This document shows, piece after piece, positions 17,632 to 44,546 of a stretch of DNA of 64,000 bases. A model generated the notes under the pieces. The model was not told the origin of the DNA and did not search any database. It worked only from the letters and a program-made list of their open reading frames with translations. This DNA is from Erythrobacter crassostreae (GTDB taxonomy: Bacteria; Pseudomonadota; Alphaproteobacteria; Sphingomonadales; Sphingomonadaceae). The DNA lies in NCBI RefSeq assembly GCF_019204045.1, contig NZ_JAGSPC010000001.1, positions 310,001 through 374,000 of the forward strand, in the 5' to 3' direction. The position numbers and the translations under genes were made by a program. Within the stretch, counting starts at the first letter, position 1. Each line of letters starts with the position of its first letter.

Positions 17632-17898
17632 ATGTCTGACGAATTCGCTACTCTCGCGCAGTCTCCTCTCACCCCCAGTGAACACGCATTTGCGGTCACA
17701 CCCGATGATGTCGTTGCGCTGCCAACCATTCCAAAATATCTCTATGTCGGCACTGGCGGCTCCATTGCCTTGCGGACAAAAGATGCATCGGCAGATGTGT
17801 CCTTTCTGAATGTGCCGGATGGCGGGTACCTCTACGTTCGCGCCGAATTTGTTCGCGCCAGCGGCACCACCGCAACCGACATCGTGGCCTGCGCTTAA
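17632..17898 (+). CDS. Phage/GTA-type spike base protein (RCAP_rcc01079/GhsA-like)
   Basis: An 88-residue protein without a signal peptide. The run HAFAVTPDDVVALPTIPKYL followed by YVGTGGSIAL, and the ending RASGTTATDIVACA, match the pattern I know for the 'spike base protein, RCAP_rcc01079 family'. That family's founding member is the base of the head spike of the Rhodobacter capsulatus gene transfer agent. GAAAGG precedes the ATG. Its TAA overlaps the ATG of the large fibre gene by one base (TAATG), so the two are made together. No other phage or GTA gene is visible in the window. Assignment is from memory of the family. Confidence 0.72.
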   Translation: MSDEFATLAQSPLTPSEHAFAVTPDDVVALPTIPKYLYVGTGGSIALRTKDASADVSFLNVPDGGYLYVRAEFVRASGTTATDIVACA

Positions 17899-20540: not shown

Positions 20541-20562
20541 ACGGTAGCGGCAAGCCAGCCCA

Positions 20563-23487: not shown

Positions 23488-23491
23488 GCTG

Positions 23492-24748: not shown

Positions 24749-25916
24749 GGTCTAGAAAGATCTGATACGTTCGAAGTCTGCCCTGCGCCTCTTTATTGGC
24801 TGCGGCCGTCTGCGTTTGAAGCGCGGGCAGATCGGCAAGCGCGGCATCGAAGCGATCAAGTACAGTTTCATTCGTTTCTGTCGTGAGATCAGAATTCCAA
24901 CGGTAGCCAAGCGAGCCAAATAGCCCGCTAAACTTTCGACTATACCCAAGCGGCAAGACTGCGGTCCCAGATGAAAGCGCCGCAATGGTCGAATGCATAC
25001 GGCTACCAGCGAACAGATCGAGCCCGGCAATATAACTCTTCGCTTGCGATGGCCCCGAAAAGCGCGGCGGCAGGATGACGCTTGGGAAACGGTCTCTCAG
25101 CATTTCTGCCAGCGCATAGTCATCTTCATGAGGCGTTGCCGCGGCCAGCACATGCGGGACCAAATGCAGCTCGATCCGCGGGGCATTCACAAGGCGGCTC
25201 ATAATTCCATCGACCAGCGCCGGATAGTCGACTGAAAGGCGAATGCGGTCACCGGTCGCAATATCACGGCGGTACAACAAGGCGGAGACATTGAGGCCCG
25301 CCCTGATCGGACCACTTGCGAGACTTCGGGCGTCCTTGTCCGGATCGGATGTGAACGGCAGCGCGAACGCCACATCGGTCGTTAGCGACGAAGCGGAAGC
25401 AATGCCCAATTCGCCAAGCAAATCGAATGACGGCTCGTCCCGGGCAAATACGTGCTTGGCAAGCTTTAGGACACCGACCGCCTCAGCCCGCGCAGTCGCT
25501 GTATGAAATGGGCCGATTGTCTGGGGGCTAAGCACAAGGGGAACGCCGTGCAATCGAGCTGCCACCTTAGATGCAATTATCAGTTGAAACCGCCGCGCCG
25601 AATAGATGTCCGAAAAGCTATCACCGCCGCCGATATCGAAGATGATATCGCACCGCCTAAAAGCCTTGTGAAGTGCCGAAAACGGGTTCGCCAAAGCTTT
25701 GTAGCCGACATTCGTGAAGTCGGTCTCATAAGCGATTTCATGGCTGTAATCGAAGGCGCCGCGCATGCCCAGACAATGAAAAACTGGACGCCGCCCAGTC
25801 TTCTCGACTGCCGCTGCGATCAAGTTGGCGTTCGCCACTGTGAGCGCCCCAACACCAAGATTTTCGTTGAAACAGGAATGCCAGAGCAAACCGATATGAA
25901 GCGGCTTTTGCTGCAA
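24714..25916 (-). CDS. Polysaccharide pyruvyl transferase family protein
   Basis: A 400-residue member of the PS_pyruv_trans family, which transfers pyruvate from phosphoenolpyruvate to form ketals on sugars. Seen motifs are IIFDIGGGDSFSDIYS, PLVLSPQTIGPF and FAGSRMHSTIAALSSGTAVL (the conserved R.H segment). Pyruvate ketals would add acidity to the polymer. The gene overlaps the iron-sulfur protein gene and follows the acyltransferase by 7 bases, so the three are co-expressed. Confidence 0.87.
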   Translation of the reverse strand: MQQKPLHIGLLWHSCFNENLGVGALTVANANLIAAAVEKTGRRPVFHCLGMRGAFDYSHEIAYETDFTNVGYKALANPFSALHKAFRRCDIIFDIGGGDSFSDIYSARRFQLIIASKVAARLHGVPLVLSPQTIGPFHTATARAEAVGVLKLAKHVFARDEPSFDLLGELGIASASSLTTDVAFALPFTSDPDKDARSLASGPIRAGLNVSALLYRRDIATGDRIRLSVDYPALVDGIMSRLVNAPRIELHLVPHVLAAATPHEDDYALAEMLRDRFPSVILPPRFSGPSQAKSYIAGLDLFAGSRMHSTIAALSSGTAVLPLGYSRKFSGLFGSLGYRWNSDLTTETNETVLDRFDAALADLPALQTQTAAANKEAQGRLRTYQIFLDHVAADLVARGV

Positions 25917-26496: not shown

Positions 26497-27549
26497 CTAG
26501 CGCGCTAGGAGCGGTCTCCACCAGTCTTCATGATCGAGATACCAACGCAAGGTTTGCCGTAAACCTGCATCGAAACCATGCCGGGCAGAATAGCCAAGCT
26601 CGGCCCGAGCCTTGGTCTCATCGATCGCATAGCGCCGATCATGTCCGGCTCTATCGGTAACGAATGCCTTCAGACTGTCGCTCTTTCCACCTTTTGCGGC
26701 TGGCGCATCCGGATAGCGAGCGTCGAGCCCTTCCACTTCCTCAAATGCGAGATCAACCTCGCGGCAGATGGCATCAATCACTGCCATATTGGGAAGCTCC
26801 GCTCCGCCACCGATATTGTAAGTTTCGCCGGGCTGTCCATCTTTCAAACACGCCTCGATCCCGCGGCAATGGTCTTCGACGTGAAGCCAGTCGCGCACGT
26901 TCATCCCATCACCATAAATCGGCAGTGGCCTGCCAGAAAGTGCATTGAGAAAGAACAGAGGGATTAGTTTTTCCGGATACTGATAGGGGCCGTAATTGTT
27001 GGAGCAATTGCTGGTCGTAACATTGAGCCCAAACGTGTGATGGTAAGCGCGAACCAGGTGATCGGAGGCTGCCTTTGATGCGGAATAGGGAGAATTTGGC
27101 GCATATGGCGTCATTTCGCTGAATGCTGGATCATTCGGACCAAGCGATCCGAAAACCTCATCGGTAGAGATGTGGTGAAACCGGTGATCTTTGCCCGCGC
27201 CGTCCAGCCACACGGCACGCGCCGCTTTGAGCAAACTGTTGGTGCCGAGTATGTTGGTGTCGATAAACTCGTCCGGTCCAGTAATGGATCGATCAACATG
27301 GCTTTCCGCTGCAAAATGAACGATCGTATCGCACTTACGCTCGTGCAGCAGCTTCTCTACCAACGCGGTATCGCGAATATCGCCTTCGACCAGTTCACAT
27401 GACGGCGCGCCGTCGAGAGTTGATCGATTCCCAGCATAGGTCAGCGCATCGAGAACGATGACCGTGTCATCGGGATGGTTCGCATTCCAATAATGGACAA
27501 AGTTGCCGCCGATAAAGCCGGCACCGCCGGTAACAAGCAAGTTAGCCAA
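26497..27549 (-). CDS. rfbB: dTDP-glucose 4,6-dehydratase
   Basis: A 350-residue extended SDR enzyme, second step of dTDP-L-rhamnose synthesis. TGGAGFIGGNFV binds NAD+, STDEVFG carries the catalytic Thr-Asp-Glu, and YSASKAASDHLV is the YxxxK site. Length is normal. The start overlaps the rfbD stop by 8 bases. It ends the rfbA-C-D-B series. Confidence 0.94.
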   Translation of the reverse strand: MANLLVTGGAGFIGGNFVHYWNANHPDDTVIVLDALTYAGNRSTLDGAPSCELVEGDIRDTALVEKLLHERKCDTIVHFAAESHVDRSITGPDEFIDTNILGTNSLLKAARAVWLDGAGKDHRFHHISTDEVFGSLGPNDPAFSEMTPYAPNSPYSASKAASDHLVRAYHHTFGLNVTTSNCSNNYGPYQYPEKLIPLFFLNALSGRPLPIYGDGMNVRDWLHVEDHCRGIEACLKDGQPGETYNIGGGAELPNMAVIDAICREVDLAFEEVEGLDARYPDAPAAKGGKSDSLKAFVTDRAGHDRRYAIDETKARAELGYSARHGFDAGLRQTLRWYLDHEDWWRPLLAR

Positions 27550-28399
27550 GGGCCTTTTCCTCTTTCAGCATCCTGCGAAGATTCTCCCGCCAATGGACGG
27601 GCTCGTCCGCCAAAACCATGCGTGTCTTGCTGCAATCAAGCAACGAAAAAGCCGGACGCTGCGCCGGTGTTGGGTACTCTTCAGTAGCAATCGGGCGGAT
27701 GCGCGGTTTCGTATCAATCAATCCCAAAGCAAGCGCTTCTTCGGATATTGCGACCGCAAAATCATACCAGCTGGCAACTCCGGCATCGCTGTGGTGATAT
27801 GTACCCTCTGCCCCTCGCCCAACCAAAGCCCAGATTGTCTGGGCCAGCCCGGTCGCGAGCGTAGGCGCGCCGATCTGATCGACGACAACATTCAGTTCAT
27901 CTCTCTCCTTCATCAAACGTATCATGGTCCGGACAAAGTTTGCGCCGCCTGCTTCATAAACCCATGCGGTCCGCACCAAAAGGTCGCCTGCGCGAAGATG
28001 GCCTTCGCCCTCGGCTTTTGTCCGGCCGTAAGCGGAAACGGGCGCTTTTTGATCTTCCGGTTGGTAGGCGAGCGGCGATGTTCCATCGAACACGAAATCC
28101 GTCGAAACATGGACAAGTTTGCCGCCGGATTGGTCCAAGGCATTGGCCATCACGCCAACGGCATCGGCATTGATAGACCGGGCCAGCTCCTCTTCGCTCT
28201 CAGCCTTGTCTACCGCCGTATAAGCGGCAGCATTGATCAATATATCGGGATTTTCCGAAGCCACTTTCTCGCGCAGCGCCCCGCTATCAGTCAGATCGCA
28301 CTGTTCGGCATCAAGAGCGGTGATCAGGGTACTATCAGGAGCCGTACGCCTCAACGCGCCGCCCAATTGCCCCTTGGCTCCGGTGATCAGGACCTTCAT
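27542..28399 (-). CDS. rfbD: dTDP-4-dehydrorhamnose reductase
   Basis: A 285-residue SDR, last step of dTDP-L-rhamnose synthesis. [16 protein letters not shown] is the NADPH-binding start; VSTDFVFDG and YGRTKAEGE (YxxxK) follow. The ATG at 28399 overlaps the rfbC stop as ATGA; the frame is open upstream to 28480 but that part lies inside rfbC and has no family likeness. Confidence 0.93.
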   Translation of the reverse strand: MKVLITGAKGQLGGALRRTAPDSTLITALDAEQCDLTDSGALREKVASENPDILINAAAYTAVDKAESEEELARSINADAVGVMANALDQSGGKLVHVSTDFVFDGTSPLAYQPEDQKAPVSAYGRTKAEGEGHLRAGDLLVRTAWVYEAGGANFVRTMIRLMKERDELNVVVDQIGAPTLATGLAQTIWALVGRGAEGTYHHSDAGVASWYDFAVAISEEALALGLIDTKPRIRPIATEEYPTPAQRPAFSLLDCSKTRMVLADEPVHWRENLRRMLKEEKALG

Positions 28400-28941
28400 G
28401 TGAAAGCCGCGATGTTGCCGAGTGCTTGTCCGCCACGATCCTTGTCCGAGATGATCGGCTTCAAGCCATCGAGCGGCCATGCGACACCAACCGCCGGATC
28501 ATCCCAAGCCAAAGTATGCTCAGCCTGAGGCGCATAGGGAGCGGTGCATTTGTACAAGAAGTCAGTGTCGTCTTCGAGGGTCAGGAAACCATGTGCGAAC
28601 CCTTCAGGCACCCATAGCTGCCGCTTATTTGCCGCTGAAAGCTCGACACCCGTCCACTTGCCGAAATGGGCCGAAGATTGCCGCAGATCGACCACAACGT
28701 CGAACACTGCCCCGCTTGTCACACGGACCAATTTTCCTTGCGGATCGGGGTTCTGGAAATGCAGCCCTCGCAGCACACCTTTTTGCGAGCGAGAATGGTT
28801 GTCCTGAACAAATGTCAGATCAAAACCGGCATCGCGAAAATGGCTCTCGTTCCATGTCTCCATGAAAAAGCCGCGCTCATCGCCAAAAACGCGCGGCTCG
28901 ATAATCATCGGTCCGGGAATGTCGCAAGGCACCAGCTTCAT
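28396..28941 (-). CDS. rfbC: dTDP-4-dehydrorhamnose 3,5-epimerase
   Basis: A 181-residue cupin-fold epimerase, third step of dTDP-L-rhamnose synthesis. Clear family segments are [35 protein letters not shown] (catalytic His), [16 protein letters not shown] and [14 protein letters not shown]. It is coupled to rfbA by ATGA overlap and to rfbD in the same way. Confidence 0.95.
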
Positions 28942-29828
28942 GGTAGTGTCGGATTTTCCAAAAGGGCGAGCAGGTATTCACCGTAACCTGACTTACGCAG
29001 TGGTTCTGCAATCCGCGCAAGTTCGGCATCGTTGATGAAATTCTGGCGCCAAGCGATCTCTTCGGGGCAGGCGATTTTAAGGCCCTGACGCTCTTCGGTG
29101 ATACGAACATAAGTCGCAGCGTCCAAAAGCGAAGAATGTGTGCCGGTATCCAACCAAGCGAACCCTCGCCCCATGATTTCTACCGAGAGCGCGCTGTCAT
29201 CGAGATACAGACGGTTGAGATCTGTAATTTCTAACTCGCCGCGCGGAGAGGGCTTTAGGCTACGCGCTCGTTCCACAACTGTCTCATCATAGAAATAGAG
29301 CCCGGTGACGGCGTAGTTCGACTTGGGCGATTTGGGCTTTTCCTCAATCGACCTTGCATTGCCCTTTCCATCAAAGTCCACCACCCCAAAGCTTTCGGGA
29401 TTGGTGACCCGGTAGGCGAATACACTCGCGCCGCTCTCTTTCGTATCAGCGTTCTGCAACAAATCCGGCAGACCGTGCCCGTAAAAAATGTTGTCGCCCA
29501 GAATTAGCGCGCTTGGCCCGTCAGCAACAAAATCTGCACCGATATGAAACGCCTGGGCAAGACCTTCGGGGTCGGGCTGAACGGCATAGCTAAGAGCCAC
29601 CCCGAAATCGGAACCATCGCCCAAAACCCGCTGGAATTGGTCAGCATCTTCAGGGGTGGTTATGATCAAGATGTCCTGAATACCCGCGAGCATCAGCGTG
29701 CTGAGCGGATAATAGATCATCGGCTTGTCATAGATTGGCATCAACTGCTTTGAGACACCGCGCGTGAGCGGATAAAGGCGCGTGCCTGACCCACCTGCCA
29801 GAATGATGCCTTTGCGGGCCGCTGTCAT
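28938..29828 (-). CDS. rfbA: Glucose-1-phosphate thymidylyltransferase
   Basis: A 296-residue nucleotidyltransferase, first step of dTDP-L-rhamnose synthesis. [20 protein letters not shown] is the dTTP-binding signature; [16 protein letters not shown] and [11 protein letters not shown] also match. It is first in the rfbA-rfbC-rfbD-rfbB operon. The 183 bases between it and the divergent nucleotidyltransferase at 30012 probably carry promoters for both directions. Confidence 0.95.
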
Positions 29829-30011: not shown

Positions 30012-31169
30012 ATGATGACGCAAGTCGAAGCTATAGATCGGTACTTTGCAGGGTGCATACGCTGCGTTCTGAATGGCCAAACCGCACCCGCGTGGCCGGT
30101 TGGGCTGGACACGCAATCTTCGGCGGCAAAGCAGCGCCTTGAATATCACGGTATTGCACTGCTTCTTGCTCAAAGTGCGCCGCCCTTGACCGGCTGGCCC
30201 AAGGACCTGGCTGATACTTTGCAAGACGAAGCTCGGCTTCAGGCGCTTTGGGAAGCTGACCACATTGTTGCAGTTGCCCGATTGATCGAGAGTTTGCATC
30301 AAGCGGATATCACCTCGCTGGTTATGAAAGGCACCGCTCTCGCCTATTCAATCTATCCCGAACCGGCGCTTCGCCGCCGCGGCGATACGGATCTTTTGAT
30401 TGAGAGCGACAAACGAGACGAGGTCCGCGAGGTTTTCCGACAATGCGGTTTCGACCCCGGGGCCGATCGCCGCGTCCTCCAAGAAGACTGGGTGTTTCAC
30501 TCACCCGCAGGCTTTTCCCATCAAATCGATCTGCACTGGGCGCCCAGTTCGAGCATGGCAATTTCGGGCGGCATTGCGTGCGACCACCCGCGCCAACGCG
30601 CGATTGCGCTCCCTTCGCTTTCTCCCAACGCGATGGGGACAGGCCTGATTGATACCTTTGTCCAAACTTGCATCAATCGCACCGCGCACGAAGCATTTGG
30701 TTACTTGATCGAGGGCGAAAAGCTTTTCGAAGGGGATAGGCTGATCTGGGCAGTCGATCTGCATAGTCTTGCGCTCCGATTTTCGGCGGCAGACTGGCAG
30801 GCGCTTACGCGTATTGCGGCGCGGTGGGGCGCGGCACAATCAGTACTATCAGGGATCAACTTTGCACAAAGGGCATTGGATACTGAAATTCCGCGGACTG
30901 TCATTCGTGAGCTCACGAGCAGCGCACAATCTGCGAACTCGGTCTCAACCCATTACAACGAGGCAAGCCCGCTCCGGAGACTTACCGACGACCTGGAAGC
31001 TGCGGCGGGTATGTCGCTAAAACTAGCAGTCTTAACCGAGCACACACTACCAAGCCGCCGGTTCATGCAAAGCCGCTATCCCGGTTCTGCATCTTGGCCA
31101 CTCCCGGCTCTGCACTTAAGGCGCTTTCTTGACGGCACAGTAAGAATGTTGCTGGGCAGTAGGCGATGA
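30012..31169 (+). CDS. Nucleotidyltransferase-fold protein of a lasso-peptide cluster
   Basis: A 385-residue protein of the uncharacterised nucleotidyltransferase family NTP_transf_5. LVMKGTALAYSIYPEPALRR followed by RGDTDLLIE gives the core, in which the D-x-D is the metal site, and HQIDLHW gives the third acidic residue. Proteins of this family recur in lasso-peptide clusters that carry HprK-like kinases; their role is not settled, and modifying the phosphate group is one proposal. It overlaps the ABC exporter by 4 bases (ATGA). Its start could be ATG 30012 or 30015. Confidence 0.78.
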   Translation: MMTQVEAIDRYFAGCIRCVLNGQTAPAWPVGLDTQSSAAKQRLEYHGIALLLAQSAPPLTGWPKDLADTLQDEARLQALWEADHIVAVARLIESLHQADITSLVMKGTALAYSIYPEPALRRRGDTDLLIESDKRDEVREVFRQCGFDPGADRRVLQEDWVFHSPAGFSHQIDLHWAPSSSMAISGGIACDHPRQRAIALPSLSPNAMGTGLIDTFVQTCINRTAHEAFGYLIEGEKLFEGDRLIWAVDLHSLALRFSAADWQALTRIAARWGAAQSVLSGINFAQRALDTEIPRTVIRELTSSAQSANSVSTHYNEASPLRRLTDDLEAAAGMSLKLAVLTEHTLPSRRFMQSRYPGSASWPLPALHLRRFLDGTVRMLLGSRR

Positions 31170-32833
31170 AGCTCGCATTTCTTTGGCAACGCGCGAAACA
31201 GTTTCGCGGCGAACTGATACTGATCAGCAGTCTGTCGATTGCAAGCTCGCTTGTGACACTAGCAATCCCATGGCTTGCCGGTCAGTTGTTGGGCGGCGTG
31301 GTCGGCGGCTTTCAACAGGACCTGAAAGTAACTCTAGGGCTGCTGGTCTCCGCCCTTGTCAGCATGACAGTGCTGAACATCACCTCATCGATAGTCTCGT
31401 CCGCGGCCTCGCTCAGAATTCTCGTGCAGCTTCGAGAAGAAGTCTACAACCACGTTAATCTGATGCCGATGGCGTTTCATGACAGGCGCAAGAGCGGTGA
31501 CGTGTTGGCGCTCATGACGTCAGAAGTCGGCGGTTTGAGCGGCTTTCTTGCCACCACACTTACAAACGTTCCTTCGATGATGCTGACTGCAGCCGGAGCA
31601 GTCGTCCTTCTGTTTCTCATCGATCCGACTGTGGCAATTCTGGTGCCTATCCTTGTGCCGCTATTCTTCATCGTGATGAAGCTTGTCGGGCGGAATCTGA
31701 GAGTGATCGCGCAGCAGGCGAGAAAAGCCGAGGTGTCTGTTTTTGCGACTGCGGAAAGTGACCTCGGGATGGTTTCCGCAATCAAGGCATTTGCCACAGA
31801 AAGATATCACCGCGGCGCCTATTCAAAGGCGGTCAAAACTTCGCAAAAGATATCATTCCGTCAGGCTCGGATAAGAGCTTTCATTGGCCCGATTGTAGCT
31901 CTGATCGCGGCACTTGCTGCCATCGCTGTACTCATCATCGGCAGTGACGCGCTTGCAACCGGAGACCGGACACCGGGCGAGCTATTTGCATTTCTCTTAT
32001 ACGCAGCGTTGCTGACACGGCCCGTGGGCGGCCTAGCCGATATATACGGCAGCTATCAGGTGGCACGGGGAACGCTTTCACGCCTTGAGGCGGTCCTCGA
32101 ATTGGAGCCTGAGCCTGGCCACAACAGCGGATCAAAGCTGGATCGCGCTGCGGGGGGCATCATCTTCGAGAATGTTCAGTTTTCTTACCCAGCGCGACCT
32201 CAGGTGCTCAATGGGCTCAACTTATCGATAAAACCGGGCGAAATCGTCGCTCTTATGGGAGACAATGGCGTTGGTAAGTCGACCCTCGTGAAGCTGCTGC
32301 TCAGGTACTACCGTGCGGATGGTGGCCGGATCATGCTCGACGGGACAGACATCACCGAAATCCAGATTCAGGATTTGCGCCGCCAATTTGGTTACGTCCC
32401 TCAGAGGCCAATGTTGTTCAATGGCACCATCGCGCGCAACATCGCCTTTGGACAGCCAAGCATATCTGGCGACCAAGCAACGGATGCGATGTCTCGCGCC
32501 GTGAAACTCTCCCAGGCAGAAAATTTCATCGCCGATCTGCCCAAAGGTCTTGAGACGGAAATTGGTGATCACGGCGTTCGCCTTTCAGGCGGGCAAGGAC
32601 AGAGGATTGCCTTGGCGCGTGCGCTCTATCGCGATCCGCCGATCTATATTCTCGATGAAGCCACCAGCATGTATGATCTGGATAGCGAAGCAGCCTTTGT
32701 AGAGGACTGTATTGACGCCCTTAGAGATCGCACCGTTATCTTGATTACGCACCGCCCTGCGAGCCTCGCTCTTGCTGACAGGGTGCTGGAAGTCTCGTAC
32801 AACGAGGTCACCGATGTGACAGGAAAATTCTAG
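31166..32833 (+). CDS. ABC exporter, fused membrane and ATPase domains (lasso D-type)
   Basis: A 555-residue half-transporter: six membrane helices in residues 1-300, then an ATPase domain. GDNGVGKST is Walker A (Lys371), LSGGQGQRIALARAL the signature, and IYILDEATS Walker B. There is no C39 peptidase domain at the N-terminus, so it cannot itself cut a leader. Because of its position it is the likely exporter and immunity factor for the lasso peptide. Its stop lies 9 bases from the convergent stop of the PqqD-like gene. Confidence 0.85.
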   Translation: MKLAFLWQRAKQFRGELILISSLSIASSLVTLAIPWLAGQLLGGVVGGFQQDLKVTLGLLVSALVSMTVLNITSSIVSSAASLRILVQLREEVYNHVNLMPMAFHDRRKSGDVLALMTSEVGGLSGFLATTLTNVPSMMLTAAGAVVLLFLIDPTVAILVPILVPLFFIVMKLVGRNLRVIAQQARKAEVSVFATAESDLGMVSAIKAFATERYHRGAYSKAVKTSQKISFRQARIRAFIGPIVALIAALAAIAVLIIGSDALATGDRTPGELFAFLLYAALLTRPVGGLADIYGSYQVARGTLSRLEAVLELEPEPGHNSGSKLDRAAGGIIFENVQFSYPARPQVLNGLNLSIKPGEIVALMGDNGVGKSTLVKLLLRYYRADGGRIMLDGTDITEIQIQDLRRQFGYVPQRPMLFNGTIARNIAFGQPSISGDQATDAMSRAVKLSQAENFIADLPKGLETEIGDHGVRLSGGQGQRIALARALYRDPPIYILDEATSMYDLDSEAAFVEDCIDALRDRTVILITHRPASLALADRVLEVSYNEVTDVTGKF

Positions 32834-32842
32834 CAGTCGCCC

Positions 32843-33124
32843 TCAAGCAGACTTTAGAGCAACCAATTCTCGCTCTTTAAGGTCGTTAAGAAGAGCAAGC
32901 ATATCCCGTTCAATCAGATCACGCGATGCGTCAAATTCCTCTTCGATGACGTCACACATTTCCGTCAAGCTGCGAGACTTCTCGCTCAGCAAGGACCAAA
33001 TGCGCCCGCCTACAGAATCGAGCCCAAAATACTGCCCGCTCTTGAGATCAAGCAGGACTGTCTCGCCGCTAACCTCGCGGGCAACGACATCTTCGGATGC
33101 AGAGTATCGATCAGTTAGTTTCAT
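32843..33124 (-). CDS. PqqD-like RRE protein (lasso B1)
   Basis: A 93-residue stand-alone PqqD-family protein. DVVAREVSGETVLLDLKSGQ followed by YFGLDSVGGRIWSLLSE is the standard beta-strand/helix pattern of the RiPP recognition element. In lasso clusters this protein (B1) binds the leader peptide and hands it to the processing enzymes. It overlaps the kinase stop by 14 bases and is last in the minus-strand operon. Its usual partner, the B2 peptidase, is not next to it. Confidence 0.85.
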   Translation of the reverse strand: MKLTDRYSASEDVVAREVSGETVLLDLKSGQYFGLDSVGGRIWSLLSEKSRSLTEMCDVIEEEFDASRDLIERDMLALLNDLKERELVALKSA

Positions 33125-33971
33125 GCGGGGCCAGTCCTTGCGAGACGTTAAATATCGCGCTGATTACGTTAGGCAAAGTCGAATAATCTCGCGGATAGTC
33201 CAAACTGAATGTCGGTATTGCTTCAACCAACTCGCCTATACGATTGAAATGTGATTCCAGGCGCTGACGGTCTTCGACATCTAGGATGAAGCCGTGCTGC
33301 ATCAATCCTTGCAATGCAGCGGACGAAGACAATGGTTCAAGCGCAAGCGCGGCTTCATGGTCTGCGCCCAGCATAAACATCGCACACAGATTGTGCGGCT
33401 GATCGGCGAACGGAAGATGATCCGCAGCGTCAATGCGCTGCTTGCCGTCGACGTCAGAGAAACCGACGTCGCTACCTAACAAATATTCGGCACTATCTTT
33501 GAAAAGGCGAAGGCCCGCACTGTTTGGCAATAGGCGGTAGCCATTTGCCCTTTGGTCCAGTTCCACGACATCCTCAGCCATGAACGGATAGCCCGATTTT
33601 GCAAAGGCACCGGCAAGTGTCGTTTTCCCGCTACGTGAATGGCCGAGAAAGGCAATCGCGCCTGACGGTGTTCGAACGCCGCTCCCGTGGAGGAACACGC
33701 CGCCATTATGATTGCCTAGAAGCGGAACGATTGAATTGTCGAACAGCTTTTGAACAAGATTTTCGCTGCCCTCTGAAACGGGAACGGCCGCGACTGCCCC
33801 AGTCTCCCCATCAATTTCAAAATCGGCTTCGTCAGGAAATCTAAGTTTGAAACCGCCGCTCGTGCGATGAAACTCGCAAACACAATCACCATTCGGCGAA
33901 ATCCAGCGATCGTAAGGACTGGTGGCCAATTGTGCTTGCTTGCGAGGCTGCCCCATCGTCAAATGGGTCAT
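33111..33971 (-). CDS. HprK-like serine kinase of the lasso cluster
   Basis: About 286 residues, related to HPr kinase. GGVFLHGSGVRTPSGAIAFL leads into the P-loop GHSRSGKTT (Lys about 116), then FMAEDVVELD. Kinases of this type in lasso clusters phosphorylate a Ser of the precursor, in known cases at the C-terminus. Here the precursor ends in Met, so the site must differ if the kinase is active. I start at ATG 33971, which overlaps the methyltransferase stop as ATGA; ATG 33983 is also in frame. Confidence 0.8.
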   Translation of the reverse strand: MTHLTMGQPRKQAQLATSPYDRWISPNGDCVCEFHRTSGGFKLRFPDEADFEIDGETGAVAAVPVSEGSENLVQKLFDNSIVPLLGNHNGGVFLHGSGVRTPSGAIAFLGHSRSGKTTLAGAFAKSGYPFMAEDVVELDQRANGYRLLPNSAGLRLFKDSAEYLLGSDVGFSDVDGKQRIDAADHLPFADQPHNLCAMFMLGADHEAALALEPLSSSAALQGLMQHGFILDVEDRQRLESHFNRIGELVEAIPTFSLDYPRDYSTLPNVISAIFNVSQGLAPHETN

Positions 33972-35089
33972 GAAACGGCGCAACGTTTTAGAATGTCTCT
34001 TACCAGATTGCGGGTGCCCTGCTGACTAGGCATCAAATCAGGGCGGTCGCGCATTACGGTTTCTTCAATTTGCGCCGCAGTGCGCTGGCCATCGACCAGC
34101 GATAATATGTACTGGCTTGCCTGTGCGTTGTCATTCAAACGAAGCGGCCCGTCCAGTGTCGCACGATCAGCCTCGGCCAAAATAGTGGTCGCCCAGTTCG
34201 ATTGCTTTTGCGTTGGGCCGCCGCGCGGTGTGATATCCCACGCCAAGAAGTTGCCCTCAGGCCTCGCTCTGATCGTAACTGAAATGCGATCACCTCTCTG
34301 CACATCGAAAGGTCGGGCAATGGGGAAAAATGCCTGAGAACGCTTGATGCCGTTCGGGTCCAGAGGCGAATTCGTCATCCAGACATCATTACCAAGATGC
34401 GACTTGAACCATCCCGCCAAACCATCGAAGCGGCCTGACGAGGTAATCTCTATCTCAGCTTCGAAAGAAAAGTATTCTGGCGTGTCAGCGTTCAGAGTTA
34501 TCTGGCCCAGCTCAACCGGCGCACTGCACAATTCTCCCGGAGCAAACTCATGTGGGTATTTCGTATTTCGCGCCTGCTCATCAATCCAATGAAACACTTT
34601 CGGAACGATATCATCAGACCAAGCCGCTGCCTTTTCATGGCAAGCATCCGATGACACACCCGCAATTTGCAAAACCAGTTTGTCCGGCATGATCGCGCCG
34701 CCGGGTTTGAGCATGCGCTTTGCTGCATCGCGGACCATGTCGATGATACCGTAATCGATCCCGAAATAGCCGATATGATCACAGATCAGCGCATCGACGG
34801 GCTCGGCCAGTTCTGCGCGAAATGTGCTGCTGGCGATACAGGTATAGTGTTTGTCTAGCCCCGCTTTACGCACGGTCTCTTGCGCCAAATAGATCGCGTC
34901 GCTGCTGTCTATGCCCCAAACGTGGCTGGCCCCCACCTCAAGGCAAAAAATGCCGAGCACTCCGACCCCGCAGCCCAGATCGGCAACGGTATCATCAGGT
35001 GCAATGCAATCTGAAATCGCTGAGCGGTAAAGATCGCTGCGGTTGGCTAAACCAAGGTAGTGGACATGTTCGGCAAGACTATCCGACAT
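33968..35089 (-). CDS. PRMT-like methyltransferase with C-terminal PqqD-like domain
   Basis: A 373-residue protein. Residues about 25-130 form a SAM-binding domain (VADLGCGVGVLGIFCLEVGA; VWGIDSSD), and 140-300 have the beta-barrel style of protein arginine methyltransferases. Where PRMTs have the double-Glu loop SEWMGY...E, this protein reads CDHIGYFGIDY, so both Glu are replaced. The last 60 residues (QYILSLVDGQRTAAQIEETV and on) look like a PqqD/winged-helix unit that could hold the leader peptide. It lies 71 bases after the precursor and is coupled to the kinase. The core has no Arg, so methylation of a carboxylate is more plausible; this is inference. Confidence 0.72.
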   Translation of the reverse strand: MSDSLAEHVHYLGLANRSDLYRSAISDCIAPDDTVADLGCGVGVLGIFCLEVGASHVWGIDSSDAIYLAQETVRKAGLDKHYTCIASSTFRAELAEPVDALICDHIGYFGIDYGIIDMVRDAAKRMLKPGGAIMPDKLVLQIAGVSSDACHEKAAAWSDDIVPKVFHWIDEQARNTKYPHEFAPGELCSAPVELGQITLNADTPEYFSFEAEIEITSSGRFDGLAGWFKSHLGNDVWMTNSPLDPNGIKRSQAFFPIARPFDVQRGDRISVTIRARPEGNFLAWDITPRGGPTQKQSNWATTILAEADRATLDGPLRLNDNAQASQYILSLVDGQRTAAQIEETVMRDRPDLMPSQQGTRNLVRDILKRCAVS

Positions 35090-35160
35090 AAAGACTCACC
35101 CACTCTCAAAATCTATGTCGCTACGGGCAAACTACTGTCCGGATTGAACAGGTGAGAGAT

Positions 35161-35298
35161 TTACATCATCATGTCTACGCCGCCAACCATGCTGCCGCCC
35201 GAGTCATTTGAAAGCGTGCTGACGCTTCCGCCGGTCAGATTGCGGACCGAGCCATAGGCATTCAGTTTTGGCGAGGAATATGTGCGCTTTTTTGTCAT
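35161..35298 (-). CDS. Lasso peptide precursor
   Basis: A 45-residue protein. The leader has Y7, P10, L12, G16 and T22, an exact fit to the lasso motif YxxPxLxxxGxxxxxTx. Thr at -2 places the cleavage after G23, so the core is residues 24-45: it starts GSVSTLSND and ends GGVDMMM. G24 is core position 1 and D32 is core position 9, which allows the Gly1-Asp9 nine-residue macrolactam ring of class II lasso peptides. The 13-residue tail has no aromatic or charged bulky residue; only four Met could act as plugs. AAGG lies 10 bases before the ATG. The gene is 45 bases after the cyclase gene. Confidence 0.88.
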   Translation of the reverse strand: MTKKRTYSSPKLNAYGSVRNLTGGSVSTLSNDSGGSMVGGVDMMM

Positions 35299-35343
35299 GG
35301 TTAAAACCTTTGCCAGCTCAGTTATTCTACTGTGCAACGTAGT

Positions 35344-37203
35344 CTATCGTTCATTGGAATTCTGCAAAAAACTTGTAACAAGATAACAGCCCCAATACGG
35401 CCAGTCCCAGATATCGTCAAAATCGTGTTCTATCCGTAACGTGTTAAACGCGCTGAACTGTTCAGAATTAACCAGCGGCGCGAGGACACCAGACATTTCT
35501 GTCTGACACATCCTCAGTATAGCCTGATCATGCTTCGCCTCTGGAAAAGATGCCTTGTCTGGCCGGTCCACCACAGCATCAGGCATAAATCCTCTCATCG
35601 CTTCCCTGTGTAGCCACTTGGTTTGCCCGTTTCGAAACTTCACGTCTTCGGGCACCGAAGCTGCAAACTCGATAAACTGACGGGTGCACATCGGGCTTCT
35701 GCCCTCAAGGCCAAGCCGCGCTCTCTGACGCGCCATAAGATCGAATGATCTTTGGTTTAGCTTCGCATCCAGCGTCCGCGCATTGGCGTTAGCAATTTCG
35801 TCAAAAGGCAGCGCTGCCAAATAACTGGTCTTGGTCGAGCGGACAGAAGCGGCATACTCCGCATCAAGGTATTGGACCGGATCTACCATCAGGCTGCCGT
35901 AGTCAGAACGAGATCGCTTTAATGCCAAGCGAACCGGTTTAGGAAGAGCCGCCAAGATCATTTTGCGCAGCGCAAACCCTACCGAAGAACGCGTGCCATA
36001 GGTGGCTATGTCGCGGCGCAGATTCTTGAGAAATCGCCGAACCTGACGCGATTGGATTGTTTGATGATAATATCCGAAACTACCATCCAGCCATTGATCA
36101 CCGCCCTGCCCATTCAGCGTAACTCTCGCCCCGTCTTTTGCCATTGCTTGCTCCATCAAGATGGAGTGCGAAGCGTTGGTGTAGGTTGGTAGATCACGCT
36201 CACGTTTGCCTTCGGCATCAAACCAGTCGAGGTCAGGCCGGAACAACTCACTTTCAGTCAGATCGCTATCTGTGAAATCCGTCACAGACCGGGCAAAGGC
36301 GATCTCATCAGATTCAGCGCCCGCCTCACCGCGTAGGGTATAGGCTCTGATTTCGGGTGCAGGCAGCGTACCCATCATATCGTGGGCTAAGGCATAGATT
36401 GCCGATGAATCGAGGCCCCCGCTGACTTCGATCGCAAGTGGTAAATGAGTGCGTGATGTTCGGCGGATCGCATCGCGGAGCACATCGCGGTATGCCTCGA
36501 TATATTCCTCATCAGAGCGATAATGCCTGATCGGCTGTGACGGCAGGCTGTAGTACCGACGGACCTCTATTTGCCCCGGGGAGGTTATGAGACAATGCGA
36601 TGCATTCAGCCGCTTCACCCCTTTCCAAGGCGTCCTGTCTACCGAATACGTTTCGCCTACCATTGCCTCGGCCAAGTAGTCATAATCGAAGTCAGGCTGG
36701 CGATCGAGCCCAGCCAAAACTGCGGCGATGCTAGAGGCCGCAATAAGAGCCTCGCCGTTTTGACAATAGAATAGCGGGCGCAGACCCTGATGGTCGCGGG
36801 CACAGAACAAAGTCTGACGGCGACAGTCCGCAATCACAAACGCAAATTCGCCTTCGGTCCTTAGAGCACAATCGTCTCCCCATTCTTCATAGGATCGCAG
36901 GACCAGTTCTTCATCTGAGCGGTTTCTTAAGCTGGCACCTCGATCAAGCAATTCTCGGCGCAGTTCTGCGCAATTGGTCAGGAAACCGTCGAACACCAAC
37001 GCTCGCTGGCCATCTTCGGAGCAATGCGGTTGATTGGCATCTTTGGCTTCAGCAGTTGTGAAAAGGGTGCAAGCTGAAAGCCCCATTTTCCCATTGGACC
37101 ATTGGTCGCGCGCATCGTGCGGATTGCGGGACAGGACATCTGTCATCGATTGCATCCGCACCGATAGAAGACCGTCTGCAAAGACTGCAGCAATTCCGGT
37201 CAT
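35344..37203 (-). CDS. Asparagine-synthetase-like lasso cyclase (C protein)
   Basis: A 619-residue protein with an N-terminal Ntn glutaminase-like domain and a C-terminal synthetase domain. EVSGGLDSSAIYAL (around residue 262) is an intact PP-loop for ATP, and NGQGGDQWLDGS is the second conserved segment. Residue 2 is Thr, not the catalytic Cys of glutaminases, as expected when the amine comes from the peptide rather than glutamine. It should activate Asp9 of the core with ATP and close the ring onto Gly1. It is the first gene of the minus-strand operon, upstream of the precursor, which is not the most usual order. Confidence 0.88.
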   Translation of the reverse strand: MTGIAAVFADGLLSVRMQSMTDVLSRNPHDARDQWSNGKMGLSACTLFTTAEAKDANQPHCSEDGQRALVFDGFLTNCAELRRELLDRGASLRNRSDEELVLRSYEEWGDDCALRTEGEFAFVIADCRRQTLFCARDHQGLRPLFYCQNGEALIAASSIAAVLAGLDRQPDFDYDYLAEAMVGETYSVDRTPWKGVKRLNASHCLITSPGQIEVRRYYSLPSQPIRHYRSDEEYIEAYRDVLRDAIRRTSRTHLPLAIEVSGGLDSSAIYALAHDMMGTLPAPEIRAYTLRGEAGAESDEIAFARSVTDFTDSDLTESELFRPDLDWFDAEGKRERDLPTYTNASHSILMEQAMAKDGARVTLNGQGGDQWLDGSFGYYHQTIQSRQVRRFLKNLRRDIATYGTRSSVGFALRKMILAALPKPVRLALKRSRSDYGSLMVDPVQYLDAEYAASVRSTKTSYLAALPFDEIANANARTLDAKLNQRSFDLMARQRARLGLEGRSPMCTRQFIEFAASVPEDVKFRNGQTKWLHREAMRGFMPDAVVDRPDKASFPEAKHDQAILRMCQTEMSGVLAPLVNSEQFSAFNTLRIEHDFDDIWDWPYWGCYLVTSFLQNSNER

Positions 37204-37463
37204 TGGAAACCCGATCCTCTCCTTAACGCCGATCCGGCCGGCGTGATCGCTTTAACGAAGCGCGTCGTTGAACTTCCGCATATGCGTCTCAAAAGATTCA
37301 GTCCATCTCTGCAGGAATTGCCCCGCTGACTGAATCGCGGCAAACATCACTTTGAACCTCATGACAAAGAACCTCTGTTGTTTTCTGCCTCCTTAGGCTT
37401 GCGTTGAGTTCTTCTGTGTATTGCCCTAATGTGATTTTAGTTATCGCAAGAAAGACGTTTACG
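37204..37463. other. Intergenic region between lasso cyclase and exported protein genes
   Basis: A 260-base stretch between divergent genes that must hold the promoter of the lasso operon (leftward) and of the small exported protein gene (rightward). I see no convincing operator palindrome or extra coding region in it. An AAGAAAG sequence about 10 bases before 37464 may be the ribosome-binding site of the rightward gene. Confidence 0.5.
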
Positions 37464-37751
37464 ATGATCAAAACCGCATCTCGTTTGACCCTTACGGTTG
37501 CAACCGTAAGCATGGCCTTTCTGCCGGTTGCGGCGCACGCCAACACGCGTGCCGGCGACAATGGCACCGTCTACGGTGCCGAAGCATCATCGGCAGGCGC
37601 AATTTTCGGCGCTGTCTATGATGATGAAGAGATTTCTTTCGCTCTCGGTGACGTCTTGGCTGTCGTCGCAGGAATCCTCGCTGGCACTGCGATTATCACG
37701 CTCCTTTCCGGCACTGCTGACAATAGCCCGGATCAATCCCGCGGGACCTGA
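37464..37751 (+). CDS. Small exported protein of unknown function
   Basis: A 95-residue protein with a signal peptide ending near VAAHA and a hydrophobic C-terminal helix (LGDVLAVVAGILAGTAIITL). The middle is rich in Gly, Ala and acidic residues. No family recognised. The ATG at 37464 is preferred over an upstream in-frame start at 37404 because it gives a proper signal peptide. It precedes an O-antigen ligase-like gene by 56 bases, so it probably belongs to polysaccharide or envelope assembly. Confidence 0.6.
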   Translation: MIKTASRLTLTVATVSMAFLPVAAHANTRAGDNGTVYGAEASSAGAIFGAVYDDEEISFALGDVLAVVAGILAGTAIITLLSGTADNSPDQSRGT

Positions 37752-37807: not shown

Positions 37808-39163
37808 TTGACTAATTCTGCTCTGTCCAAGCAATCAGCCCTGATTGCGATTGCCGCAATCATTTGCATTGCAGCCGTGATGGGCGGAGGCGGCGTGCGC
37901 TATGGCATAGCGAACCTCACAGTCCAGTTGACGGCTCTCGCATTTGCGGCGTTCCATTGCCCTGCAATCTTTGCATTTTGGAAAACTGCACCTGCATCTT
38001 TACGGGTCTTGATCGCTCTTTCAGCTCTTCTTCCTCTTGCTCAACTCATCCCACTTCCGGAGAGCGTTTGGACTTCTTTGCCCGGCCGCGAGCTGGTGCA
38101 GCAATCGTTTGCGCTAACCGGTCACAGCGGCTGGGTTCCTCTCAGCGTTGACCCAATTCGTACGACAGTCGCACTAACCGGCATCATCGTCCCGCTTGCC
38201 ATATTGATGGTCGGTTGGTCATTGAAACGCCGCCAGTTGCTGATGCTAGGCTGGCTGATCGTCGCGATCGGCTTGGTCAATGTTCTGATCGGCATTCCAC
38301 AAGTTTTGGCCGGAGTGTCGGCCCTCCCGATCTACCCCGAGCCTGGACCAGATGATGTACTCTACGGGTTGTTTGCCAATCGAAACTCCACGGGACTGTT
38401 TCTAGTGGCTGCATTTACGCTTGCCGCGATCCTGCCCTCACCAAAGAAGCATGCCGCCGTGCTTCCTGTCCGTCTGGCTCTCTGCTTGCTGTTCCTTGTC
38501 GCGATTGTGCTGACCCGATCTCGCACCGCCCTAGTGTTGGCTATGATACCAATCGCGATGGCCATGCTTCGCTCAGTATTGGTCTTTCGCAGCAGCACCA
38601 ACGGCCAGACCAGAAAATCGCCGTCTGTTCGCTTTGTGACGTTTGGAGCAATTGCACTGTGTATCGCTGCCGCTGCCACAACTTTAAGCATGGCCCCGGG
38701 CAGGGTCGCCGATACTATGGAGCGGTTTCAGGCCCAAAGCGATGCACGCGCCTATATCTGGAAGGATGCGACTTATTCCGCTTCTCGCTACTGGCCGGCG
38801 GGAACGGGCATGGGCACGTTCGACGAAGTTTTTCAGACGGACGAGTCGTTAGAAAACGTGACCGAGCGGCGCGCCGGACGCGCTCATAACGACTATCTAG
38901 AGGTCGCGATCGAAGCCGGAGCAACGGGGATCATCCTGATCGCGGCGTGGCTGATAATGATTGCCTGGCTTGCATGGCGCGCTCGCAATTCCGAGCGGCG
39001 CTGGGCCGCATGGGCTGGAGGAGCAATTCTGCTAGCCATCGCCCTTCAATCGATAACTGACTACCCCTTGCGCAACCAATCCATGCTGGCTCTGGCAAGC
39101 TTTGCATTCCTTCTACTGGCGCGCATCGGAACCCGCCGCGGTGAGAATGAACATGATCGGTAA
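37808..39163 (+). CDS. O-antigen ligase-like membrane protein
   Basis: A 451-residue protein with about twelve membrane helices. SRTALVLAMIPIAMAMLRSV and the large loop with YIWKDATYSASRYWPAGTGM and HNDYLEVAIEAGATGI are the Wzy_C/O-antigen ligase pattern, with the H-N-D-Y-L-E segment well kept. It starts at TTG 37808 with AAGGA about 12 bases before. It is the second ligase/polymerase-like gene in the window and overlaps the next gene. Confidence 0.82.
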   Translation: MTNSALSKQSALIAIAAIICIAAVMGGGGVRYGIANLTVQLTALAFAAFHCPAIFAFWKTAPASLRVLIALSALLPLAQLIPLPESVWTSLPGRELVQQSFALTGHSGWVPLSVDPIRTTVALTGIIVPLAILMVGWSLKRRQLLMLGWLIVAIGLVNVLIGIPQVLAGVSALPIYPEPGPDDVLYGLFANRNSTGLFLVAAFTLAAILPSPKKHAAVLPVRLALCLLFLVAIVLTRSRTALVLAMIPIAMAMLRSVLVFRSSTNGQTRKSPSVRFVTFGAIALCIAAAATTLSMAPGRVADTMERFQAQSDARAYIWKDATYSASRYWPAGTGMGTFDEVFQTDESLENVTERRAGRAHNDYLEVAIEAGATGIILIAAWLIMIAWLAWRARNSERRWAAWAGGAILLAIALQSITDYPLRNQSMLALASFAFLLLARIGTRRGENEHDR

Positions 39164-42270: not shown

Positions 42271-42380
42271 GGTGATCGCTCCTGCAGTTTGTGTTTCCAG
42301 CCTTCAATAGGCCGCAGGCTTACCGATGGACAAGTGACGATTGACGCGGCAACATGCTCTACGAGAGGGAGAACTACCAA

Positions 42381-44546
42381 ATGTCGATGAGGAAATGGGC
42401 CTTGCCCGTGCTGGCGCTTGGCGCCCTGTCGGTGACCGCTTGCAACGAAATGTTCGAGGCGGAAACAGGAGGCGGCATTACAAGCGCAATGTTGGTTGGT
42501 GCGGATAGCGATCATGCCAACTGGATCACGCATGGCCGGAACTATTCCGAGCAACGGTTTTCCCCGCTTGATGAAATCAACGCTGAAAATGTCGGTGAGC
42601 TGGGTTTGGCATGGTTCTCCGATATGGACACCGCACGCGGTCAGGAAGCGACCCCGCTTGTGATGGATGGAAAGCTCTATGTCACAACCGCATGGAGCAA
42701 GGTGAAAGCCTTCAATGCAGCCACTGGCGAACCGCTGTGGGATTACGATCCGAAAGTTCCGGGTGAAACCGCCGTCAAAGCCTGCTGCGACACTGTAAAT
42801 CGCGGATTGGCTGCTTACGGCGACAGCCTGTTTCTCGGCACGTTAGATGGCCGTCTGGTCGCGCTGGATCGCGACAGCGGCGATGTGAAATGGGAAACAG
42901 TGACTGTTGACCAAAGCCAAAGTTACACAGTGACCGGCGCCCCGCGGGTCATCGACGGCAAAGTAATCATCGGCAATGGCGGCGCTGAATTTGGCGTGCG
43001 CGGTTACATTGCTGCCTATGATGTGAATGACGGCAGCGAGCTATGGCGCTTTTACACCGTGCCCGATGGCAATGAGGGCGGTGAAAGCCCGCAATATATG
43101 CAAGACGCAGCCGAAACTTGGAACACCGAAGTTCTCGCCGGAAACGACGCCATTGGCGGCGGCGGTACGGTGTGGGATTCAATGGCTTACGATCCCGATC
43201 TCGACTTGCTGTATATCGGTGTTGGTAATGGGTCTCCTTGGAACCGCGCATACCGGTCTCCGGGCGAAGATGGCACAGGCGAAGGCGACAATCTCTACCT
43301 ATCGAGCATAGTCGCGATCCGTCCGAGCACCGGCGAATATGTCTGGCATTATCAGACCACACCGGGCGAAACGTGGGATTACACCGCGACCCAGCACATC
43401 ATCTTGGCTGATATGGAAATCGATGGAGAAGAGCGTCAGGTTCTGATGCAGGCCCCGAAAAACGGCTTCTTCTACGTGATCGACCGGGCGACAGGAGAAT
43501 TCATAAGCGGCGAACCTTATGTAGCGGTAAACTGGGCGACCGGCATAGGCGAAGACGGGCGTCCAATCGAAAACCCCGAAACGCGGATCGACAAGACAGG
43601 TCAGCCTGCGATTGTTACGCCGGGCGCACTGGGCGGCCACAACTGGCATCCGATGGCGTATCACCCTGATGAAAACCTTGTCTACATTCCCGCGTTCGAA
43701 GCCGGGATGGTTTACGCTCCTGAAGAAAACTGGAAGCCGGACCGCGCGCGCGGTTTCAACGTTGGTTTCGACCTTGGCGCAGGCGATCTGCCTCCTGATT
43801 TGGGCATCCGACGCGAAGTCGCAGGAACGCTGCGCGGCATGCTGGTTGCTTGGGATCCGGTAGCTCAGGAAGCGAAATGGACAGTCGAGCATCCCGGTCC
43901 TTGGAACGGCGGCTTGCTCGCGACAGCTGGCGGCCTGGTGTTCCAAGGCACAGCTGGAAGCGAGTTCAATGCATATTCGGCAAATTCAGGCGAAAAACTT
44001 TGGAGCTTTGGCGCGCAAACCGGTGTCGTTGCACCGCCGATCACCTACACAGTCGATGGCGAGCAATATGTGGCTGTTCTGGCTGGTTGGGGCGGCGCCT
44101 ATGCGATCACAGTAGATGGTGAGCTTTTGGATGCAAAAGCACCTGTCCGCAATGTCTCACGGCTGCTTGTATTCAAGCTGGGTGCTGATGGCGAATTGCC
44201 TGCAGAAATGGAACTCGCCAAGCTACCGCTTGACCCACCACCAAGCCGCGCGAGCGCAGAAACGATTGCACTCGGAGCCGAGAAATACGCGCGCTATTGC
44301 ACCGTATGCCATGCGCCTGCAGCGGTAGGCTCAACTGTGTTACCTGATCTGCGCCGTGCTGGTTCACTTGGCAATGCAGGAGCGTGGGAAGCTGTCGTGC
44401 ATGGCGGTATCCTAAAGGATAACGGAATGGTTTCTTTCGCTGACTCGCTCAGCAAAGAGGAGATTCAGGCTATCCGTGAATATGTTATCTTCCGTGCTAA
44501 TCAGGACAAAGTGATGGAACAGCCAGGGGATGTTGCAAGGCGTTGA
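42381..44546 (+). CDS. PQQ-dependent quinohaemoprotein dehydrogenase
   Basis: About 721 residues. A lipoprotein-like signal (ALGALSVTAC) precedes an eight-bladed PQQ propeller. AVKACCDTVNRG contains the vicinal Cys pair that sits by PQQ. The C-terminal domain has CTVCHA, a haem c site, so this is a type II quinohaemoprotein alcohol dehydrogenase. Acting in the periplasm, it would pass electrons from alcohols to a cytochrome. AGGGAG 9 bases before ATG 42381 fixes the start. No pqq synthesis genes are in the window. Confidence 0.9.
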   Translation: MSMRKWALPVLALGALSVTACNEMFEAETGGGITSAMLVGADSDHANWITHGRNYSEQRFSPLDEINAENVGELGLAWFSDMDTARGQEATPLVMDGKLYVTTAWSKVKAFNAATGEPLWDYDPKVPGETAVKACCDTVNRGLAAYGDSLFLGTLDGRLVALDRDSGDVKWETVTVDQSQSYTVTGAPRVIDGKVIIGNGGAEFGVRGYIAAYDVNDGSELWRFYTVPDGNEGGESPQYMQDAAETWNTEVLAGNDAIGGGGTVWDSMAYDPDLDLLYIGVGNGSPWNRAYRSPGEDGTGEGDNLYLSSIVAIRPSTGEYVWHYQTTPGETWDYTATQHIILADMEIDGEERQVLMQAPKNGFFYVIDRATGEFISGEPYVAVNWATGIGEDGRPIENPETRIDKTGQPAIVTPGALGGHNWHPMAYHPDENLVYIPAFEAGMVYAPEENWKPDRARGFNVGFDLGAGDLPPDLGIRREVAGTLRGMLVAWDPVAQEAKWTVEHPGPWNGGLLATAGGLVFQGTAGSEFNAYSANSGEKLWSFGAQTGVVAPPITYTVDGEQYVAVLAGWGGAYAITVDGELLDAKAPVRNVSRLLVFKLGADGELPAEMELAKLPLDPPPSRASAETIALGAEKYARYCTVCHAPAAVGSTVLPDLRRAGSLGNAGAWEAVVHGGILKDNGMVSFADSLSKEEIQAIREYVIFRANQDKVMEQPGDVARR

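Follow-up and report, generated by a model that had tools for sequence, protein, structure and literature searches.

One of the closest described systems to the locus reported here is the bsf cluster of Bradymonas sediminis. It encodes a precursor, a discrete recognition element (RRE) for ribosomally synthesized and post-translationally modified peptides (RiPPs), a B2 leader protease, a cyclase, an ABC transporter, an HprK-like kinase and a nucleotidyltransferase, and its kinase acts on a ring-side serine, not on a C-terminal one (PMC10368454). In this work we describe a related set of genes in Erythrobacter crassostreae, within a stretch of 64,000 nucleotides that we call the window (contig NZ_JAGSPC010000001.1, positions 310,001 to 374,000; coordinates below are those of the window unless stated otherwise). 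We are fairly confident that seven genes at 30012-37203 form a lasso-peptide cassette at a fixed site in an exopolysaccharide locus, and that their enzymes probably also serve a distant precursor that is fused to a Peptidase_S74 domain. A preliminary description of this DNA had proposed a lasso-type RiPP cluster from these seven genes, and all of them are present as open frames.

The likeness to bsf extends to the precursor, as BsfA follows the same -17/-14/-12 leader numbering. There are also differences: bsf has Ile(-2) where we find Thr(-2), its phosphosite is Ser3 whereas we predict Ser2, and in the accessible part of that paper (PMC10368454) a methyltransferase, satellite precursors and S74 fusions were not found described. 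The Lpp RiPP family of the Bacillota (PMC13381572) is similar in its RRE, its HprK-like kinase LppK that modifies core Ser3, its NTP transferase and its MsbA-like transporter. It differs in using a SpI-like leader peptidase, whose genes are linked to lasso enzymes in only about a third of cases, and a term look-up found no methyltransferase named in the available text. Paeninodin and pseudomycoidin (PMC9266682, PMC8498205) also involve a kinase, the latter together with a nucleotidyltransferase and a hexose on the phosphoserine, but the phosphosite is the C-terminal Ser. Other lasso clusters are tailored by S-adenosylmethionine (SAM) methyltransferases, e.g. StspM and LasF (PMC9266682) and LihM (PMC13352647); these are O-methyltransferases of the C-terminal carboxyl or PIMT homologues, whereas the enzyme here is modelled with the fold of a protein arginine methyltransferase (PRMT). 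LopH of longipeptin A, which we liken to this enzyme by description only, is proposed to convert Met of a RiPP into a sulfonium by S-methylation, a predicted function of a possibly new methyltransferase family (PMC11285071).

The lasso assignment of the cassette is well supported by comparative sequence evidence. The 45-residue precursor (35161-35298, minus strand), placed by a comparative alignment, also scores above the NCBIfam lasso_leader_L3 cut-off (20.3 versus 19 bits). It is predicted to consist of a 23-residue leader with Y(-17), P(-14), L(-12) and T(-2), and a 22-residue core (35164-35229, minus strand) that begins G1-S2 and has its ring acid at D9. Of the 55 precursors from related cassettes 54 have all of Y(-17), P(-14), L(-12) and T(-2), and one lacks L(-12) alone; these leader positions were partly built into the search pattern, which favours them. 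The ring acid is independent of the pattern, and it is found as Asp or Glu at core position 8 or 9 in 55/55 cores. The cyclase (35344-37203, minus strand) belongs to the Asn-synthetase family (Asn_synthase at 136.2 bits, with GATase_7) and occurs in 42 of the 46 cassettes of the genus. Its SGGLDSS motif is intact, as the preliminary description had read it, while the glutaminase Cys is absent from all eight cyclases compared and is replaced by Thr in the window. The PqqD-like RRE (lasso B1; 32843-33124, minus strand; PF05402, 70.3 bits) is present in all 46.

These counts come from a cassette-kinase profile (E < 1e-60) that matched in 46 of 114 genus genomes; all 46 loci were read, together with nine from other genera, chosen not at random but by their matches to profiles A1 and A4 among 397 family genomes. 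We excluded the weaker matches of A1 (L039, L041-L046, L099-L105), and L029 and L181, which are the same contig, were counted once. Of the 55 cassettes, 52 gave the 55 precursors; L031, L190 and L208 are without an intact precursor and do not enter the core counts. A scan of the genome contigs gave one confirmed locus, L029. When 12 divergent loci were scanned for precursors with a loose pattern, L100, L106, L119 and L120 each yielded a lasso-like candidate, along with matches that are probably due to chance. The same genes recur in relatives with their order mostly kept, so the set is not a chance assembly, and the placing of the cyclase ahead of the precursor, which had been singled out as unusual, is seen in relatives too.

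The comparisons indicate that the exopolysaccharide locus of the genus has a fixed place for the cassette, so that the position beside this locus noted earlier becomes a conserved one. A Wzy_C O-antigen ligase-like gene (37808-39163, plus strand; PF04932, 63.2 bits) follows 43/46 genus cassettes; the three exceptions are on short contigs (3.1-6.6 kb). Outside the genus it lies beside seven of nine cassettes and is missing from L097 and L098. Approached from the ligase (matches below 1e-100), 19 genomes divide into 12 with the cassette adjoining, two with a divergent lasso-like set (L119, L120), one, G005, whose cassette lies on a different contig, and four with none (L114, L116, L117, L118); among these last, L114 retains only the ABC gene and L118 is too short a contig (5.6 kb) to carry weight. 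Beside the ligase-like gene there is usually (42/46 cassettes) a gene for a small protein with a signal-like N-terminus (37404-37751, plus strand), for which Pfam gave no match. The usual left-hand neighbours at 26497-29828 (minus strand) are genes that we take to be the dTDP-rhamnose genes rmlB, rmlD, rmlC and rmlA; a homologous RmlA accompanies 37/46 genus cassettes.

A typical lasso precursor has nothing after its core and is encoded next to the enzymes that process it. A search with the precursor profile A4 found a second precursor in the same genome (G000:C1:158190), about 152 kb before the window and about 187 kb from the cassette precursor. The end of its leader, GSVRNLTG, is identical to that of the cassette precursor, its core has Ser2 and Asp8 followed by a Met-rich tail, and its C-terminus is a Peptidase_S74 domain (23.9 bits, cut-off 22). 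Its site is flanked by an SSS symporter and a TauD-like gene, and 12 genomes have a precursor there. This precursor is S74-fused and Met-rich in 4/4 genomes whose cassette has the methyltransferase, and has neither the S74 domain nor the Met-rich tail in 8/8 genomes whose cassette lacks the enzyme. Another genus has three S74-fused precursors within the cassette itself, two with a methyltransferase (L093, L094) and one without (L154, the same as L147). In all seven fused precursors the S74 domain exceeds the Pfam cut-off and a Ser/Lys(+5) dyad is invariant, matching the dyad of MYRF (S587/K592) and the endosialidases (PMC3742440). When phages were searched with an S74-fused precursor, 19 records matched and none covered more than 80% of the query; all ten matches listed begin at residue 56 or 57, i.e. 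at the S74 domain. Because the second precursor lies elsewhere in the genome, the pathway probably extends beyond the seven genes.

Other genomes show further satellites. In G009 the cassette (L031) has no precursor and the genome holds satellite precursors L133 and L134; in G481 the cassette (L190) has neither cyclase nor precursor, and satellite L220 carries a cyclase and two precursors. We count these as support, as both look like natural complementation of incomplete cassettes. In addition, satellites L184 and L188 pair a precursor with a methyltransferase of their own, in genomes whose cassettes (L199, L200) are without the enzyme. In two of these loci, L134 (8268-10324, G009) and L220 (6262-8748, G481), the satellite precursors, which adjoin a stand-alone cyclase, have two Cys in their core.

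The methyltransferase (33968-35089, minus strand) is found in 28/46 genus cassettes. Family searches identify it as a SAM methyltransferase with weak similarity to the PRMT C-terminal region. Its AlphaFold model (pLDDT 85.6) was matched to PRMT3 (8g2g) over about 300 residues, with a TM-score of 0.80 by target and 0.68 by query, and its profile matched PRMT2 among PDB sequences at 151.5 bits, which bears out at the level of fold the earlier suggestion of a PRMT-like enzyme. The double-Glu loop is the defining catalytic motif of PRMTs. In the alignment Asp104, invariant in 10/10 members of the family, stands at the first Glu and a Tyr of the window enzyme at the second; the model is that of a PRMT fold without the PRMT double-Glu loop.

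What does this enzyme methylate? Of 36 cores with the methyltransferase, 35 have a Met in the tail, the part that follows the ring acid, and of 19 cores without it none does; no other residue separates the two groups as well. Counted by locus, tail Met stands at 32/33 versus 0/19 and tail Gly at 31/33 versus 19/19. Since the enzyme goes with tail Met, we favour Met as the predicted methylation target. In a quick kinase tree the presence of the methyltransferase changes at least four times, two of these changes being forced by well-supported branches; tail Met changes the same way on the supported branches, giving two independent pairs that have the same direction in nearly every draw. Arginine was considered as the target and rejected: the window core has no Arg, and tail Arg occurs at 14/33 loci with the enzyme and at 19/19 without. 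Carriage of the methyltransferase on plasmids found no support either, as tblastn gave no match among 72,556 plasmid records at E 1e-15. In ten of the methyltransferase cassettes (L034, L035, L090, L095, L096, L182, L183, L186, L187, L191) a gene of about 290-380 amino acids precedes the cyclase. The ten form one family by phmmer and tblastn. Pfam, searched with L035 and L090, gave no match, and the family has no member in the window at 28-40 kb; from its HMD...H pattern we presume a 2-oxoglutarate-Fe(II) (2OG-Fe(II)) oxygenase.

The HprK-like peptide kinase (33111-33983, minus strand) has no Pfam match above cut-off and a weak similarity to NCBIfam HprK_rel_A (21.4 bits, cut-off 200). Its residues H99, K120, D138 and D235 are invariant in 11/11 aligned kinases, and the Asp pair of BsfK is Glu-Asp here (E137-D138). 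Ser2 is present in 39/40 Asp-type cores and Ser/Thr3 in 15/15 Glu-type cores, a conservation that fits ring-side Ser kinases such as BsfK, which phosphorylates Ser3 and not position 2 (PMC10368454), and LppK. The C-terminal Ser was rejected as a kinase site of the paeninodin type: only 1/55 cores ends in Ser, and the window core ends in Met. The kinase is for this reason unlikely to act like PadeK, and by analogy BsfK and LppK appear to be the better models. The nucleotidyltransferase-like protein (NTP_transf_5, PF14907, 93.6 bits; 30012-31169, plus strand; 45/46 genus cassettes) may act after the kinase. The pairing of the two is not new, because bsf already has both (PMC10368454).

We propose the following pathway. 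The PqqD protein would bind the leader, and the kinase, like BsfK with its Ser3, would phosphorylate a serine on the ring side, Ser2. This phosphate may then be decorated by the nucleotidyltransferase-like protein, and the PRMT-fold enzyme may methylate the tail, most likely at a Met. The leader would be removed by a protease acting in trans, or by none, and the cyclase would join G1 to D9. The ABC exporter, with permease and ATPase parts (ABC_membrane/ABC_tran; 31166-32833, plus strand; 44/46 genus cassettes), would export the product. The cassette enzymes probably mature the second precursor, about 187 kb away, as well; its S74 domain should trimerize and cut itself off at the Ser of the sequence SDRRLK, just after the core. 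In its boldest form this becomes a split lasso system, in which a hub in the exopolysaccharide locus matures its own and scattered satellite precursors, some of them S74-fused so that three precursors trimerize and self-cutting frees the core C-terminus, and in which the PRMT-fold enzyme makes Met sulfonium cations. We regard the proposal in this full form as doubtful.

The leader protease is the one expected lasso enzyme that a comparison finds missing from the window cassette, which the preliminary description, right about its seven genes, had overlooked. Given this absence, the genes read as lasso-type rather than as a complete lasso cluster. B2 is present in 40/46 genus cassettes, and is missing also from L191 and from L031, a close relative of the window. 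We must suppose that another protease acts, that none is needed, or that the cassette is failing. There are precedents for the first two: a SpI-like peptidase, LppS, cuts the leader in the Lpp family (PMC13381572), and the title of a pseudomycoidin paper (cited in PMC9266682) speaks of synthesis without leader and leader peptidase. The genome has a single PF13471 protein (C1:1833699), in surroundings of acyl-CoA dehydrogenase, aminotransferase and sulfotransferase genes; it was rejected as an obvious cassette B2 because of these surroundings and its missing GGD motif. The window assembly is 84% complete, at 2.59 Mb.

A number of results weigh against the account given here. The preliminary description looked to hidden Markov models to place the cyclase and RRE in lasso families. 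Lasso models are indeed the best NCBIfam matches of both, but with scores below the curated cut-offs, at 255.7 bits for the lasso cyclase model (cut-off 525) and 54.6 bits for lasso_PqqD_Bac (cut-off 80). For B2, tblastn with B2 proteins found nothing convincing at the window (best E 0.03; queries L049, L053, L056 and L057 were wrong-strand frames and carry no weight), and a B2 profile had no match over 20-50 kb. The cassette-type signature PWRxDC...GGD is absent from the PF13471 protein of the window genome and from L108 of G009, and none of the three PF13471 proteins of G009 is a cassette-type B2 (the L112 row of this comparison was in a wrong frame and has no weight). As for the satellites, an NCBIfam scan of four S74-fused satellite precursors gave no match, the lasso leader included; since that model is silent, the lasso reading of the second precursor depends on the leader it shares with the cassette. 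The structural model of the S74-fused precursor is poor (pLDDT 53.2, no usable Foldseek match). A satellite precursor occurs in a genome without the cassette kinase (G460) and another satellite-bearing genome, G010, has a weaker cassette kinase, while the G513 match (L223) looks degenerate. The link between methyltransferase and Met has two exceptions, L098, with the enzyme and no tail Met, and L212 (G489), a satellite core that has tail Met although the cassette of its genome is without the enzyme, and the changes on the tree are too few for significance. Finally, a distant PRMT-like gene (103-123 bits to the methyltransferase model, in the uncounted L099-L105 set) lies near lasso-like genes in L100, L101 and L103, and the single candidate precursor found near such genes (L100) has no Met.

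How else might the locus be read? A decaying cassette, which has lost B2 and makes no mature peptide, seems unlikely to us. It would account for the missing protease, shared with the sister lineage L031 that also lacks a precursor, and a clearly broken cassette does exist in the genus, L208 (8336-9755, G456), where the kinase frame is split and the precursor leader contains a stop codon. That said, all seven frames in the window are open with the catalytic residues kept in the kinase and cyclase alignments, the methyltransferase, kinase and cyclase of L031 retain 67, 55 and 63% identity to those of the window, both genomes hold satellite precursors, B2 is kept in most related cassettes, and the Lpp pathway makes do with another peptidase. 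That these enzymes serve the exopolysaccharide, or make an Lpp-like peptide other than a lasso, is highly improbable. AsnB-, HprK- and PqqD-like proteins do occur in exosortase-linked exopolysaccharide loci. The fixed site would suit such a role. So would two weak similarities, one between the cyclase and the model of the XrtA amidotransferase (170.7 bits, cut-off 816.9), the other between the kinase and HprK_rel_A; and Lpp clusters without a lasso cyclase exist (PMC13381572). Yet an intact lasso-type precursor with an invariant ring acid is found in 52/55 cassettes, most genus cassettes keep the cyclase, and L097 and L098 retain most of the set away from any exopolysaccharide genes.

The strongest competing possibility concerns the methyltransferase. 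It may, like StspM, modify the C-terminal carboxylate, or else a residue of the ring or a different side chain, with the Met-rich tails serving for example in metal binding or threading, and we give this a serious chance, somewhat below even. Some lasso clusters do encode methyltransferases for the C-terminal carboxyl (PMC9266682), and LahSB acts on this group in several kinds of last residue, including Met (PMC11285071); the Met link, moreover, comprises few independent changes and the two exceptions above. On the other hand, the C-terminal residue varies freely (11 kinds in 36 enzyme-bearing cores), and tail Gly is as common without the enzyme as with it, whereas tail Met is then never seen. 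The precursor-methyltransferase pairs of L184 and L188 likewise have tail Met, and the cassettes of their own genomes have neither. A tail Met stays the favoured target.

What is most unusual about this system is the fusion of satellite precursors to S74 and the association of methyltransferase and Met. In the open literature searched, outside which most subscription papers and preprints lie, we found neither a PRMT-fold methyltransferase nor S74-fused satellite precursors in lasso clusters. The same searches gave no joint mention of lasso peptides and endosialidases, and the only one of lasso peptides and arginine methyltransferases, by listing, concerns another subject. Term look-ups in the accessible text did not find S74 in PMC13352647, PMC13381572 and PMC8498205, or 'polysaccharide' in PMC13352647 and PMC8498205. 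As for the novelty suggested earlier for the set, precursor, B1, B2, cyclase, ABC transporter, kinase and nucleotidyltransferase were already described together in bsf (PMC10368454). Lasso clusters are on record for Erythrobacter in a pan-genome paper (PMC9723273), and genes reported for Pontixanthobacter and Allopontixanthobacter include a lasso B2, a nucleotidyltransferase and PqqD, apart from a tail fiber gene (PMC10040529). If the enzymes do serve distant precursors, then cluster-based mining will miss substrates. If true, S74 fusions would be a new way to make a lasso C-terminus, and Met as a substrate would give the PRMT fold a new use. Longipeptin, the likeness drawn above, is not a lasso peptide. 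Because of the fixed site among sugar-coat genes, deleting genes would be a direct test of whether lasso peptide and exopolysaccharide are linked.

Some minor observations may be of use to others. Two tandem Glu-type precursors occur in one cassette in L195, L196 and L197. Genome G009 has a second, different lasso-like set (L106 8900-15916), which includes genes for a 2OG-Fe(II) oxygenase and for a sulfatase. The exopolysaccharide genes at 17898-25916 of the window encode a glycosyltransferase, a flippase (Polysacc_synt_3), an FrhB/FdhB-like protein and a polysaccharide pyruvyl transferase, together with an 880-residue protein without a Pfam match. On the other side, 5 kb from the cassette, is a gene for an alcohol dehydrogenase dependent on pyrroloquinoline quinone (42354-44546; TIGR03075, 648.7 bits), whose nearness to the PqqD-like gene we take to be a coincidence.

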